Source: Deltaproteobacteria bacterium (lineage in GTDB: Bacteria > Desulfobacterota > DSM-4660 > Desulfatiglandales > Desulfatiglandaceae). From it: a DNA stretch of 52,261 bases. The stretch covers positions 1 through 52,261 of the forward strand of contig JAIPDI010000038.1 in the NCBI GenBank assembly GCA_021737785.1. Reading direction: 5' to 3'. Made by a program: the position numbers and the translations under genes. Under the pieces are notes generated by a model. That model saw nothing but the letters and a program-made list of their open reading frames with translations. It did not search any database and was not told the DNA's origin. Of this stretch, positions 4,825 through 52,261 are shown one piece after another (position 1 is the stretch's first letter; each line of letters opens with the position of its first letter).

Positions 4825-6234
4825 TCAGCCCGGAAATGCCCCTGCCTGGGAGAGATCGGGCACTTCCTCAATGACGCGCATTCTCTTCCAACTGCCCTGG
4901 CGGTAGCGGAGCATGAATGCCACCCCCAAGGCGCAGGCGTAAATCGTGGCGAACGTCCAGACCGTATAGAGTCCGGCCCCCGCTATTTCTACTGCCACAT
5001 ATACCGGAAGGATCATCAACCCGATGCAGACCCCGCCGATGGTCCACATGATGAACCGGGTATCGCCTGCTCCTTTAATTGCCCCCGAATAGATGAGATT
5101 GAGTGCATCAAAAAAACAGAAAACCGCTACGAATCGCATGAGGATAATACCTTTCTCCACGATTTCCCTGTGCTGGGCCGGATGTTGCCCCGCTGTCTCG
5201 AAAAGGGAGAGGAGAGGCTCTGGCATGAATATGAAGAGGGCTGCAAGGGGCATCATGTAGGCCAAGGTAATGTGGAGGGCGCTGGTCGTCGCTTCCACGC
5301 CTCCCTCAGGCTGCTCGCGCCCGATGGCCTGGCCCACCAGGGTGGCGTTTCCGATGTGAAATCCCACCATGGGAAGAAACGCCAGGGCCTCGATGGAGAG
5401 CACGATGTTGGAAACCGCCAGTTCCAGGTCACCCAGTCTCCCCAGCATCAGGATAAAAAAGGTAAACCCGAATACCTCGAGAAAAAACTGAACGCCGCTG
5501 GGGAGGCCATAGCGCATGAGGCGTCCGAAAAGCTCCCTGTCGAACCCCCTGTTTTTCCAGGTGCCGAACCGGATCCGGTTCTTCCTGCTGAAGATGAGGA
5601 GCCCCAGGGTCAGTACGATGGTGCTGTAAGCCACGACCGTGGCGATGGCCGCCCCCATGATCCCCAGCTCGGGAAAAGGCCCTGCGCCGTTAATCAGGCA
5701 GTAATCCAGAGGGATGTTGACGACCGCCCCGGTCATATGGACCAGCATGACGGTCCATGTCAATCCCCGGCCCGTGTAGAAGCACGCCAAGGTGGAACCG
5801 AGGACCGCAAGACCGGCGCCCAGGGTCAGTATATTGAAGTAGGTGACCTCGAGAGAGTAAATCGCGGGGGAGTGCCCGATAAGGCTGAAGAGGTCCTCAG
5901 ACACAAAATAGAGGAGGGCCAGCAAGGCCCCTGAAAGGATGGAGAACCAAATTCCCTGCCAGAGGGCCGCGCCGATGCGGTGAAAGGCCTTTGCCCCGCT
6001 ATACTGCGCCACAAAGGCATTGGTGTAATTGGCCACCCCCATAAAAAATGAGATGAATGTAAACGATGCGATTCCGGCCGGCAGCGCGGCCGCGATGGCA
6101 TCCACCGAATAATTGGCCAGGAATATGCGGTCCGTGAACTGCATGAGCGTGATAGAGCCCATGGAAGCCACCAGCGGAAGGCTGATGGCCATGACTTCAC
6201 GGTAGCCGTATGGTTTTGACCAACGTTGAAACAT
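4825..6234 (-). CDS. MATE-family multidrug/cation efflux transporter
   Basis: The 469-residue product has about twelve hydrophobic helices in two MatE halves. It starts with EVMAISLPLVASMGSITLMQFTDR, a typical MATE TM1/TM2 pattern, and the second half opens near LMRYGLPSGVQFFLEVFG. These inner-membrane proteins export cationic drugs or metabolites using a Na+ or H+ gradient; substrate and coupling ion are not deducible. The length is normal. ATG 6234 has only a weak GAAGA ribosome site. The gene lies downstream of dapA but beyond the dapA terminator, so it probably has its own promoter. Confidence 0.9.
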   Translation of the reverse strand: MFQRWSKPYGYREVMAISLPLVASMGSITLMQFTDRIFLANYSVDAIAAALPAGIASFTFISFFMGVANYTNAFVAQYSGAKAFHRIGAALWQGIWFSILSGALLALLYFVSEDLFSLIGHSPAIYSLEVTYFNILTLGAGLAVLGSTLACFYTGRGLTWTVMLVHMTGAVVNIPLDYCLINGAGPFPELGIMGAAIATVVAYSTIVLTLGLLIFSRKNRIRFGTWKNRGFDRELFGRLMRYGLPSGVQFFLEVFGFTFFILMLGRLGDLELAVSNIVLSIEALAFLPMVGFHIGNATLVGQAIGREQPEGGVEATTSALHITLAYMMPLAALFIFMPEPLLSLFETAGQHPAQHREIVEKGIILMRFVAVFCFFDALNLIYSGAIKGAGDTRFIMWTIGGVCIGLMILPVYVAVEIAGAGLYTVWTFATIYACALGVAFMLRYRQGSWKRMRVIEEVPDLSQAGAFPG

Positions 6235-49018: not shown

Positions 49019-49164
49019 AACCCTATCCAACAATTCGGCAACTCTTCACCTCACAGCCAAACAGCTACCGCAGCTTAGGCACCTCCTCAATGCATCATCT
49101 TTTCCCGTAACAGCGATGATTCGAAAGCGATTGGCAAAGTTCAGGAATATGTTAGGGTGACGGT

Positions 49165-49275
49165 ATCCAACAATGAGATGGCCAAAAGAGATGGATTATA
49201 TCAACTCTTATGTCGTTTTTTTGGATTCCAATATGAAACCTGTTCAATAATGCTGTCGGATAATACTATTTAGGC
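49165..49275 (+). repeat. attC-type recombination site 1 (long, VCR-like)
   Basis: The 111-base element starts with an RYYYAAC box (ATCCAAC, 49165) and ends at ACTAT-TTAGGC, where the next cassette begins; the expected G before TTAGGC is missing. It is homologous over its whole length, about three quarters identical by eye, with site 4 at 51323-51435. Both copies keep an imperfect inverted symmetry. An attI identity is the alternative. Confidence 0.6.
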
Positions 49276-49286
49276 ACCGTTAGATC

Positions 49287-49514
49287 ATGCAAGAAGAGGA
49301 ACCAGATCTAGAGTATTTGATCTCGTATATCCCGCCTATCCCCAGGCCGGAACTGGACGCTATTCAGCGGGTGCTGAGCAAGGCGGATCCGTTCGTCCCG
49401 GGTGTGGCCTTGGAGGATCAGGAGGTGTCGTCAAGTATTGCCGCGGCAGATGCTGTACCGGGAGGAGTACATCCTTCTGGTGGATCTAAACATTGTCACG
49501 CGTTGGGTCGGTGA
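49287..49514 (+). CDS. Cassette A hypothetical protein, possibly frameshifted
   Basis: The frame from ATG 49287 gives 75 residues (MQEEEPDLEYLISYIPPIPR start, then PELDAIQRVLSKADPFVPG). After about residue 42 the +1 frame looks more protein-like (QMLYREEYILLVDLNIVTRW, ending GESLVRS at about 49530), so one base may have been lost or gained near 49410. No ribosome site precedes the ATG. It is the only gene between attC sites 1 and 2. Family unknown to me. Confidence 0.45.
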   Translation: MQEEEPDLEYLISYIPPIPRPELDAIQRVLSKADPFVPGVALEDQEVSSSIAAADAVPGGVHPSGGSKHCHALGR

Positions 49515-49551
49515 ATCTCTTGTTCGGTCGTGAGTGCCTTCTGAAGCGGGG

Positions 49552-49616
49552 GCCTAACAAACGAGGCGTTGCACCTGACAGCGCCTCGTGCGCCGCAGGT
49601 GAACGCCAGTGTAGGT
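49552..49616 (+). repeat. attC site 2
   Basis: R'' box GCCTAAC at 49552 is the exact complement of the cassette start (G)TTAGGC. The arms GGCGTT-G-CACCTG-A-C and GCAGGTGAACGCC pair almost perfectly with two unpaired bases on one side, the extrahelical bases typical of attC. The end box GTGTAGGT deviates from GTTRRRY by an inserted G, which may weaken recombination here. Confidence 0.8.
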
Positions 49617-49631
49617 AATACAGAATATACA

Positions 49632-50627
49632 GTGGAATCACAACAAAATATAATTTCAGCAGCAGCGAATTATCTATCAGATGAACCAGATAAATGGCAT
49701 CTGTTCATCATGACATTGATAGAAAATATTTGTCGTGGTGATAAACTACATTTGGAATCTAATATACATACATTTTCTGATGATGCCAGAGATCTGCTTT
49801 CGGATACACTAATAGAGGTCCTTATGGATCCACAGATGGCATACTCAATTGAATTATGTAGAAACGAAAGTGATGCGCGGGATTTGATTATAGACAGCCT
49901 CTGCCAAAATCTCGATGATTTTTATATTCCGGATAGTGAATTAGATAAAAGTTATGGGCCTATAGTTGATTTGATGGATGTCGCTTACGATGGCACGAGT
50001 TATGATTTAAGGCCAGGGGATGCTCCGGATGTGTTTACAAACTTTGGTCATAATCGTTCGAGTAGTGGGTATCATTCTTTTGAACCTTTCCTTATTAAAT
50101 ATGTACCCAGTGACATAAAAACAATTGTTGATAAGTCATTTCTTTATACCAAATCCAATGTGAATCAGGTTTCTTCACCTCTTATTCGCTTAGATGTTAT
50201 AAGTAGTGATTTATATAAATCTTTAATAGAGCATCCAGACTTACTAAAGGCATTAAACTGGAGAGCTTTTGAGAAATTATTAGCAGACATTCTCACTTCA
50301 ATGGGGTTCTCGATAGAATTACAAAGCGGAACTAAAGACGAAGGTATAGATTTATTTGCAATAAAGAAAGATAGCACATTAGGTGAACATAGATATCTTC
50401 TCCAAGCTAAGCGCTATAAAAATAAAGTCGGTGTTGAACCTGTAAGACAGCTTTTATTCTTACATAACCATTATCGTGCAACAAAATCATGTATCGCAAC
50501 TACTTCGGAATTCACGAAAGGTGCTTGGCAGCTGGCAAGGCAATATCGTTGGCAACTTGAATTGAGAGATATACATGGCATTACGGAATGGTTGAAATCT
50601 GCCACTCCCTTTAAGGATATTTTCTGA
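49632..50627 (+). CDS. Cassette B: Mrr-like restriction endonuclease-fold protein
   Basis: The C-terminal 130 residues match the Mrr_cat/PD-(D/E)xK nuclease fold: NWRAFEKLLADILTSMGF, then GTKDEGIDLFAIKK with the catalytic Asp, and LLQAKRYKNKVG with the Q-x-K pair, followed by ATTSEFTKGAWQLARQ. Mrr-type enzymes cut modified DNA and act in phage defence. The N-terminal 200 residues are of unknown fold and may sense the target. The base composition is far more AT-rich than the core, a sign of recent transfer. The start is probably GTG 49632, just past attC site 2; the frame is open through the attC. Confidence 0.8.
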   Translation: MESQQNIISAAANYLSDEPDKWHLFIMTLIENICRGDKLHLESNIHTFSDDARDLLSDTLIEVLMDPQMAYSIELCRNESDARDLIIDSLCQNLDDFYIPDSELDKSYGPIVDLMDVAYDGTSYDLRPGDAPDVFTNFGHNRSSSGYHSFEPFLIKYVPSDIKTIVDKSFLYTKSNVNQVSSPLIRLDVISSDLYKSLIEHPDLLKALNWRAFEKLLADILTSMGFSIELQSGTKDEGIDLFAIKKDSTLGEHRYLLQAKRYKNKVGVEPVRQLLFLHNHYRATKSCIATTSEFTKGAWQLARQYRWQLELRDIHGITEWLKSATPFKDIF

Positions 50628-50633
50628 ATAATA

Positions 50634-50697
50634 AACTAACATTGCATAAGCGGATTGGCTAAAAATTAACCAAACAGCTTATGTAAAGCGTCATATC
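50634..50697 (+). repeat. attC-type site 3, degenerate
   Basis: AACTAAC is followed by TTGCATAAGC-G-GATTGG, which pairs with CCAAACAGCTTATGTAA across a short AT-rich loop, again with an extra unpaired G. The terminal box GTCATAT departs from GTTRRRY. The structure fits attC, but the core boxes are eroded. Confidence 0.6.
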
Positions 50698-50718
50698 CGG
50701 ATGTAAGGGGTTCTTTTT

Positions 50719-51162
50719 GTGGTTAAGGGGTGGCAGAGGGGGTTGGGTAGGATTGCCGTTTTGACGGTTGTGTTTGTCGGGATGGGGGGTTTTGTTCTTT
50801 GGGACTAAGACAGGGTGAAAAGGGACTTTTCGGGGCTTAAGGCCTTGCTTTAGGATTTGCGGCATCGGGCGATCAGCGGGGATCAGGTGTTGGCTGTCCG
50901 GTTTGTCGACAAGCAGGCGATGGTCGAAGATGGGAAGACCGGAAAAATCATCAGGGAGCTGGACATATCCACACTGGATCAGGTGAATTACGACATGACC
51001 CTTGGCGATGACATGATCATATTCGACGGGCACGGCACCTCGGCATATAACAGACGCGAGCATGGGGGCGATGTGAGGTTGAAGTCCTGGTTGGGTTTCC
51101 GGAAACATCTCGCTGTGAATTGTACGGGCCTGGTGACGGAGGGGGTGTATCCGGAGGGATAG
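50719..51162 (+). pseudogene. Cassette gene: pseudopilin-like protein with two in-frame stops
   Basis: One frame runs from GTG 50719 (AAGGGG ribosome site) to 51162: a hydrophobic helix (RIAVLTVVFVGMGGFVLWD), TAA, DRVKRDFSGLKALL, TAG, DLRHRAISGDQVLAVRF and a C-terminal part with MIIFDGHGTSAYNRREHGGD and VNCTGLVTEGVYPEG. The layout of one N-terminal helix plus a soluble domain resembles GspH/FimT pseudopilins. Both stops are one C-to-T change away from Gln codons, and the frame is otherwise intact, so this is a young pseudogene unless the stops are read through. The part after the second stop could still be translated from a TTG at 50857. Confidence 0.65.
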
Positions 51163-51322
51163 GATATCTTTAACAGAGGGAGTGTGGGAGGAGACTGGCA
51201 AAGGCGTAAGATTTGGGAGGGCCGCAAATAAAGCAGACTCTTTTAGCCTTGCTAAGGGCTAAAAAATTATACTGAAGGCAGGACCACGATGCGGCATATC
51301 AACAATATGTCACATCGACGAT
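51163..51322. other. Spacer before attC site 4
   Basis: It contains a TTTTAGCC-TTGCTAAG-GGCTAAAA hairpin (51241-51264) without a following T-run on either strand. No gene is seen. It probably belongs to the 3' part of the pseudopilin cassette. Confidence 0.4.
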
Positions 51323-51435
51323 ATCCAACAATGAAAGGACTAAAAAGAGCTGGTTCTTGTTCTTTTGCATGTCGTTTTTTTTCGTTCTAATATCAAATCA
51401 GCTCAATAATACTGTCGGATAATACTATGTTGGGC
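51323..51435 (+). repeat. attC-type recombination site 4 (long, VCR-like)
   Basis: ATCCAAC (51323) fits RYYYAAC and GTTGGGC (51429) fits GTTRRRY exactly, 113 bases end to end. GAGCTGGTT and AATCAGCTC lie symmetrically inside. It is homologous to site 1, including the terminal CTGTCGGATAATACTAT. Cassette C begins at TTGGGC (51430). Confidence 0.7.
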
Positions 51436-51464
51436 TAAAGTCGAAGCAAAAGAGGAGGTCAGAA

Positions 51465-51851
51465 ATGATCAATCAGAATGGGGGCGCAAGCCTTGAAGTG
51501 CTCAAGTGGGTTTTAGGCGTAGCAGTGGCAGCCTTCGTAGCTGGCTTTGGCGTCGTCGCAGTCTTAGATAGGCGGATTGATGACAGGACAGCTGAGACTA
51601 CAACACAGGTCAAATTGTTAAAGGACAAGGTTTCCAAAATCCAGCAGCAACTGGCTGACAAAGACGGCCTGCTTGAACTCAACAGGAAAGTTTCTATCCT
51701 CGCTGGCAAGCAACTACGCTGCACGGCATATCCTGTTGAAGAGAAAGTTGCCCAGCCAAAATGCGGAAACGGCCAGTACCAACTAGCAGCGTGGTGTTCC
51801 GGCGACTGCAGCGGAGATGATGCAAGAGTTACAATTTGCTGCGATAAATGA
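51465..51851 (+). CDS. Cassette C: membrane-anchored protein with Cys-rich tail
   Basis: The 128-residue product starts at ATG 51465 behind a strong gaggagg site. It has one hydrophobic helix (about 13-32, WVLGVAVAAFVAGFGVVAVL), a charged coiled-coil-like segment (VKLLKDKVSKIQQQLADKDG), and a C-terminal domain with six cysteines (LRCTAYP, KCGNGQ, WCSGDCSG, ICCDK), which in the periplasm could form disulfides. No family recognised. It occupies a complete cassette between attC sites 4 and 5, with 38 bases between stop and attC. Confidence 0.75.
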   Translation: MINQNGGASLEVLKWVLGVAVAAFVAGFGVVAVLDRRIDDRTAETTTQVKLLKDKVSKIQQQLADKDGLLELNRKVSILAGKQLRCTAYPVEEKVAQPKCGNGQYQLAAWCSGDCSGDDARVTICCDK

Positions 51852-51888
51852 AATGCTCTGAACTGAGAGCTACCTTTCAACGGTTCGA

Positions 51889-51954
51889 GCCCAACATTCG
51901 CCTGTACGCGGACGCGCGGAAGACCGCCGCGCGCCGGTAAGGCGTTCGTTCGGC
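51889..51954 (+). repeat. attC site 5
   Basis: R'' GCCCAAC (51889) is the exact complement of the cassette C start (G)TTGGGC. CGCCTGTACGCGGACG and CGCCGGTAAGGCG pair with bulges, around a GC-rich spacer (GCGCGG-AAGA-CCGCCGCGC), and the end box GTTCGGC (51948) is close to GTTRRRY. This is the clearest attC of the window. Confidence 0.85.
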
Positions 51955-51974
51955 CTATATAAGGAGTCTTCTTA

Positions 51975-52142
51975 ATGACAAGTTCAACAAATATTGATGA
52001 GTTAGTCAAGCGATTACATCAGAAAAAAGAAGAATACTCTATCCTTGGAAAAGAGATTGAAAATTCTGCAAAAGAAGTTTGCGTATTGTTTGTAGATCTA
52101 AGCGATTCAACATCCATGAAGAATCGGCGCGTGTCAAGATAG
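51975..52142 (+). pseudogene. Cassette D: nucleotidyl-cyclase-domain gene cut by an insertion
   Basis: ATG 51975 has an aaggag site. After a helical lead (DELVKRLHQKKEEYSILGKE) the frame enters VCVLFVDLSDSTSMKN, the first strand of class III adenylate/guanylate cyclase domains with a metal-binding Asp and the conserved Ser-Thr. The similarity ends at about 52130, and the frame stops at 52140 in sequence that belongs to an insertion sequence. The rest of the domain is presumably on the other side of the insertion, outside the window. Confidence 0.65.
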
Positions 52143-52261
52143 TTGTCGGACGAGGTGACTATGCAGCTTTTTTCATTTCGTCCTTCAGCTGCGGATTCAG
52201 CCGCACCGTTGGTATTGGATTCCAGTTACGAGTCTTCCCGGACCAACGCTCGGGATGCCGC
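52132..52261. mobile_element. End of an insertion sequence, truncated by the window
   Basis: The cyclase frame breaks at the sequence TGTCAAGATAGTTGTCGGAC, which then leads into the transposase C-terminus on the minus strand. A TG-starting terminus about 27 bases from the transposase stop fits an IS3-like end. The inverted-repeat partner and target duplication are outside the window. Confidence 0.5.
52159..52260 (-). CDS. Transposase C-terminus, IS3-like (partial)
   Basis: Read on the minus strand the last 33 codons give RHPERWSGKTRNWNPIPT, then VRLNPQLKDEMKKAA and a stop at 52159-52161. The HPERWSG-x-TRNW and LNP pattern resembles the C-terminal end of IS3-family OrfB transposases, just past the DDE catalytic core. 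The gene continues beyond the window edge. Family assignment is from this tail only. Confidence 0.5.
   Translation of the reverse strand, partial: RHPERWSGKTRNWNPIPTVRLNPQLKDEMKKAA

Follow-up and report, generated by a model that had tools for sequence, protein, structure and literature searches.

CALINs as degraded integrons, intI pseudogenes, a clade of long IntI proteins and attI-ORF-attI units are already known, and they are the systems against which the locus described here is best read. A CALIN is a cluster of attC sites lacking an integron-integrase, proposed to be a degraded integron (IntegronFinder, PMC9024848), and surveys of integrons and CALINs score intI and attC, but attI in class 1 only (PMC9024848). 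Because attI goes unscored outside class 1, remnants that have kept attI with few attC are invisible to such surveys. It has also been reported that intI pseudogenes are frequent and that one clade of IntI exceeds the others in length by about 120 aa (PMC2426708), and that attI-ORF-attI units are unstable under an active IntI in the laboratory (PMC12901181).

The window analysed here, 52,261 bp long, spans contig C38 from end to end, one of the 96 contigs of a draft genome (G000) of 5.33 Mb, so that the array discussed below sits at a contig end. This right-hand end consists of integron remains: two tandem attI sites, cassettes after each, and no adjoining integrase. Like a CALIN, it has attC-bearing cassettes with no intI nearby, but it keeps two recognisable attI and has just one or two firm attC. 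It resembles the class 1 and class 2 attI-ORF-attI units and delta-attI cassettes (PMC12901181) in having attI copies within an array, downstream of a gene; unlike these, its attI are full-length, belong to an environmental clade with long IntI and are chromosomal, intI is absent in cis, and in attI-1, the upstream copy, the crossover G is missing. It has in common with previously described integrons (PMC2426708) a loss of integrase function, frequent there, and an association with long IntI, but here intI is wholly gone rather than a pseudogene, and attI has been kept. Finally, the host genome carries on contig C54 a sedentary integron that shares the attI type and has cassettes whose first six bases complement the R'' box of their attC (the first-six rule), but differs from the window in having a single attI and, divergently placed as is canonical, an intI with one premature stop. 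As far as our searches reached, a tandem pair of orphan attI in one chromosomal remnant is new, as is the recurrent retention of attI after loss of intI in one family.

Table 1. Features at the right-hand end of the window (positions are those of the window; site numbers are those of the initial annotation; a slash marks the crossover).
Feature	Position	Strand	Remarks
attI-1 (site 1)	49133..49269	+	orphan attI, long-IntI clade; no crossover G (..ACTAT/TTAGGC)
Cassette A	49270..49609	+	starts TTAGGC; exact partner of R'' at 49552
ORF of cassette A	49287-49514		75 aa, no family match (Pfam)
attC of A	49552..49615	+	R'' 49552-49558; poor R' GTGTAGG 49609-49615
Gene B	49569..50627	+	Mrr-type restriction endonuclease-like; PF04471 Mrr_cat E 7e-27
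Hairpin 3' of B (site 3)	50645..50683	n/a	fold z -2.5
Pseudogene	50743..51153	+	two stops (one TAG, one TAA); 64% identity to 158-aa gene
attI-2 (site 4)	51291..51429	+	orphan attI, crossover G/TT intact
Cassette C	51430..51948	+	starts TTGGGC; R'' partner at 51889; start = attI crossover
ORF of cassette C	51465-51851		128 aa, no family match
attC of C	51889..51954	+	canonical; covariance model and fold
Cassette D, start only	51949..52125	+	TTCGGC..; ORF from 51975 cut by right-hand element
Repeated element, end	52126..52261	+	probably mobile; truncates cassette D, terminates contig

Between 8 and 47 kb the window carries chiefly housekeeping genes, and since synteny with a sister species ends at ~46.6 kb, the region from there rightwards is variable. 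The proposal in the initial annotation that the array lies on a tRNA-anchored island found no support, as ARAGORN finds 0 tRNA genes in the window and there is no Rfam match in it either, though its right-hand part is indeed variable. The segment with gene B has a GC content of 35.6%, against 53.5% for the window, and the only plasmid relative of the array that we found was one weak 214-bp match, to a restriction endonuclease gene. The final 136-141 bases of the contig recur, as 99-100% copies, where C59 and C20 terminate, the sequence to their left differing between contigs. Near the left contig end (1773-2816), apart from the array, is a gene for a phage-type integrase (PF00589). Integrons are common in the GTDB family Desulfatiglandaceae, to which the host belongs: intI scores above the curated cut-off in 25 of its 46 genomes.

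The array had been described as containing five attC sites, but the sites that begin the two units proved, by homology, to be attI and not attC. A profile built from four attI sites from elsewhere, with no window sequence included, finds both (51294-51431, E 1.6e-16; 49141-49269, E 2.1e-7; next match in the window, E 4), and the bottom strands of sites 1 and 4 show no attC fold (z +0.4 and +1.6). The gap between intI and the first cassette in the C54 integron is laid out like these sites and ends as they do (..TGTC..ATAATATTATG/TT). In a DNA search of the 46 family genomes they matched attI sequences at two loci, G021:C130 and G016:C373, at the second of which the match stands upstream of an intact 470-aa intI, 15 bases away; over 138 bp, attI-2 and the attI of that intact G016:C373 integron are 70% identical. 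Since two of the five sites are attI, the anatomy becomes that of two tandem attI-plus-cassette units, in the same orientation and with ORFs between them as in an attI-ORF-attI layout. The predicted crossover in attI-2 (G/TT) coincides with the start of cassette C given by the attC rule (51429/51430); cassette A also starts where predicted, but the crossover G is absent there. Other complete attI copies have ATG or CTATG at the crossover, that at G024:C443 without the following TT, and the missing G in attI-1, a single base in a draft assembly, might stem from an error in assembly or in sequencing. The two window copies are 71-83% alike, depending on the alignment, and in a tree they group as sisters (support 0.91). 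The next to join them is a partial attI from contig C2 of the same genome, followed by that of C54.

The sites at 49552 and 51889 are attC. For both cassettes the complementarity of the first six bases to R'' that had been noted is exact: TTAGGC (49270-49275) pairs with GCCTAAC (49552-49558) in A, and TTGGGC (51430-51435) with GCCCAAC (51889-51895) in C. Of the TTNNNN starts elsewhere in the window, a fraction of only 8e-4 has, by chance, an exact R'' partner 150-1500 bp downstream with a bulged stem of at least 10 pairs after it. The bottom strands of both sites (49552-49617 and 51889-51954) fold into long stems with extrahelical bases (z -4.0 and -3.4), as had been claimed of sites 2 and 5; at site 3, for which the same claim was made, the fold is weaker. 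A covariance model of the R and L stems, made from 32 aligned attC sites of intI-linked arrays in other bacteria, gave a sole hit in the entire 52-kb window, at 51889-51954 (35.3 bits, E 6e-7), and the attC of A, for which a model hit had also been anticipated, scored just 6.1 bits (E 1.3), so that its support lies in the fold and the first-six rule. This model is insensitive for the host lineage: it recovered just 1 of ~5 attC sites in the C54 array, and because it misses most genuine sites there, the lack of a hit says little against a site. Set beside the definition of a CALIN as at least two covariance-model attC with no intI nearby, the window has one firm hit with our in-house model and one site recognised by fold and rule. 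The ORF that begins cassette D resembles the N-terminus of a nucleotide cyclase by eye only and has no Pfam match.

What lies between cassette A and attI-2 is less clearly of cassette type. The true start of gene B is probably downstream of the attC of A. The hairpin behind it has no matching R''/R' pair, no significant covariance-model hit and no first-six relation; it may possibly be a degraded attC, which leaves segment B only a candidate cassette. Gene B is also matched by PADLOC type IV restriction models. Considered as a syntenic partner of an Mrr-like gene on C2, it shares just 30% identity over 87 aa with that gene. The 158-aa gene to which the pseudogene is related has its sole other copy in the genome on C2, likewise directly left of an attI fragment.

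A canonical integron has its cassettes on one side of attI and intI on the other. The advice to seek intI to the right of the array was thus misplaced, as the canonical side is the left, which is within the contig, and a contig break therefore offers no explanation for its absence. Searches with an integrase model and with IntI-clade protein and DNA sequences found no intI or remnant near either window attI, in agreement with the initial annotation's description of cassettes without an integrase; on C38 the integron-integrase model picks up nothing but two other tyrosine recombinases, at ~2.5 kb and 17.5-18.3 kb. The host genome has two intI genes elsewhere, on C54 and C48. The C54 gene (G000:C54:26461-27868; L019 9458-10868, minus) scores above the cut-off, encodes a protein 77% identical to the intact G016 IntI and is of the right clade for the window attI type. 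It has a TGA at codon 44, directly followed by GTG, and a frame that is otherwise intact, so that the protein may still be active in trans. The C54 cassettes obey the first-six/attC rule, and a DDE transposase gene (L019 14047-15216) splits their array. The C48 gene (G000:C48:10365-11303) is of another clade, In0-like, with no attC detected in the surrounding 40 kb. Judged by sequence, the window attI type is tied to a single clade of IntI, long proteins of about 470 aa: it occurs at three loci (C54, G026:C970 and the query, G016:C373) whose IntI are 71-77% identical to the reference and is missing at 13-14 others whose IntI are 35-67% identical. The long IntI of this clade contain two SAM-like stretches.

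We favour, with a probability of roughly three in four (0.74), the reading that the locus is a relict chromosomal integron that has lost intI and kept two tandem attI, each followed by cassettes, in the order attI-1, A, B and the pseudogene, attI-2, C, D; the array would then probably be a frozen, CALIN-type remnant. Cassettes A and C would have been put into attI by an IntI of the long clade, since the attI crossover matches the cassette start, and with the later loss of intI the array would have become frozen and immobile. As the two attI are each other's closest relatives, the pair would have arisen by duplication or by attI transfer in the host lineage, and since the pseudogene's counterpart on C2 also lies left of an attI fragment, attI-2 seems to have been copied, left flank included, when intI was already missing. 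The missing crossover G of attI-1, the pseudogene between the units and the truncation of cassette D by a mobile element would all be signs of decay. By analogy with integrons in general, the attI promoter might still drive the first cassettes; neither attI contains a Pc consensus, and promoter matches in total are not above chance. Against the relict reading count the failure of the attC of A in the covariance model, the want of a firm attC for B, the shortness of an array with two real attC sites at most, the C54 intI frame with its single stop, and the draft state of the assembly.

Several other readings deserve consideration. The 2.16-kb segment between the attI could be one mobile attI-ORF-attI unit that IntI inserted and copied, rather than what the decay of a platform left behind, since IntI1 recombines known units of this sort as well as delta-attI cassettes (PMC12901181), the direct repeat consists of attI alone with no flanks, and the two copies are sisters. 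We consider this unlikely, as the reported delta-attI units are mostly of 14-18 nt and the window copies are full attI, attI-1 has no crossover G, and the association of the pseudogene with an attI fragment on C2 as well suggests that attI-2 was copied with a chromosomal-type flank. It is less likely still that the locus is part of a living, distributed integron in which the C54 IntI serves both attI and their cassettes in trans: the attI type, the clade, the closeness to the intact G016 protein and the rule-abiding C54 array would all suit such a role, but the in-frame TGA and the absent crossover G of attI-1 would not, and an active IntI should, by analogy with IntI1 (PMC12901181), quickly excise a direct-repeat pair of attI.

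The remaining two readings concern how the array was assembled and annotated. Draft assemblies are known to inflate CALIN counts (PMC9024848), and the contig does end in a repeat common to three contig ends, but the idea that a complete integron was split over contigs, with its intI on another, is very improbable when that gene is expected to the left of attI, where the contig runs unbroken for 49 kb, and when the C54 intI already has an attI and array of its own. The single array of five attC sites originally envisaged can draw on R''-like (ATCCAAC) and R'-like (GTCGGAT) boxes within sites 1 and 4; given that neither site has an attC fold or a covariance-model hit and that both are homologous to attI, we give it hardly any credence. 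We likewise tried sites 1 and 4 as long attC, and rejected this on the absent folds and the attI homology.

Orphan attI are not confined to this genome. A sequence-only attI model (a 140-bp profile), run over 85 genomes of the order, which are also the class-wide set, found eleven sites, all within the GTDB family Desulfatiglandaceae. Three adjoin intI (C54, G016:C373 and G026:C970) and eight, seven full and one partial, do not: the window pair, the partial site on C2, one each in G021 and G025, two in G024 and a second site in G026. This 8:3 ratio is indicative only, because the genomes are drafts on short contigs and, of the six with an attI hit, only three combine completeness of 90% or more with contamination of 5% or less. 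No intI was found in G021, G024 or G025 at E < 1e-60. The orphan attI at G024:C103 nonetheless has approximately the first 35 codons of intI beside it, and those at G024:C443 and G021:C130 have the intI start region alone, at junctions that enter an interspersed repeat which in G016 lies directly 3' of the intact intI. These remains indicate that intI was lost in place at all three sites, by deletion at G024:C443 and G021:C130, and suggest that retention of attI after loss of intI recurs in this family. We had considered a mobile element carrying attI to account for the left flank shared by G021 and G024, and rejected it when that 70-95-bp flank turned out to be the interspersed repeat, with 11 copies in G024 and six in G021; deletion of intI into the repeat is the better account because the repeat also stands 3' of the intact gene in G016.

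Recurrent retention of attI provides a direct route to asking if first cassettes persist as ordinary genes once shuffling has ended, and the window pair, one member of which has no crossover base, offers a parallel from nature to the unstable attI-ORF-attI units of the laboratory (PMC12901181). It is tempting to speculate that orphan attI in this family are a maintained state and not merely debris, forming dispersed sockets that retain their first cassettes after intI has gone, often next to restriction or DNA-modification genes, and that are possibly served in trans by an IntI from another part of the genome, but we regard this as doubtful.

Genes follow the orphan attI in cassette orientation, and several of them are restriction or DNA-modification genes. 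Such genes lie near orphan attI at L152 (G024:C103), L155 (G025:C287), L022 and 49569-50627 of the window; the types are an N6/N4 methylase, an HNH gene with a C5 methylase, a type II pair and Mrr. At 184.7-190.8 kb of C2 (L022 4754-10829) the partial attI has the 158-aa gene on its left, and at some distance on its right come a DpdB-like gene and a type II pair of methyltransferase and restriction genes. Each of the genomes G024, G021, G016, G025 and G000 contains 1-11 copies of the interspersed repeat of 70-95 bp (consensus GGACAAACACCTCAAAATGTGCCC..GGAGCCTTTTTGTCCTG). Group II introns lie downstream of two of the orphan attI arrays (L153 5053-5226 and L152 1-609), that in L153 following an attC-like model hit at 4917-4965.
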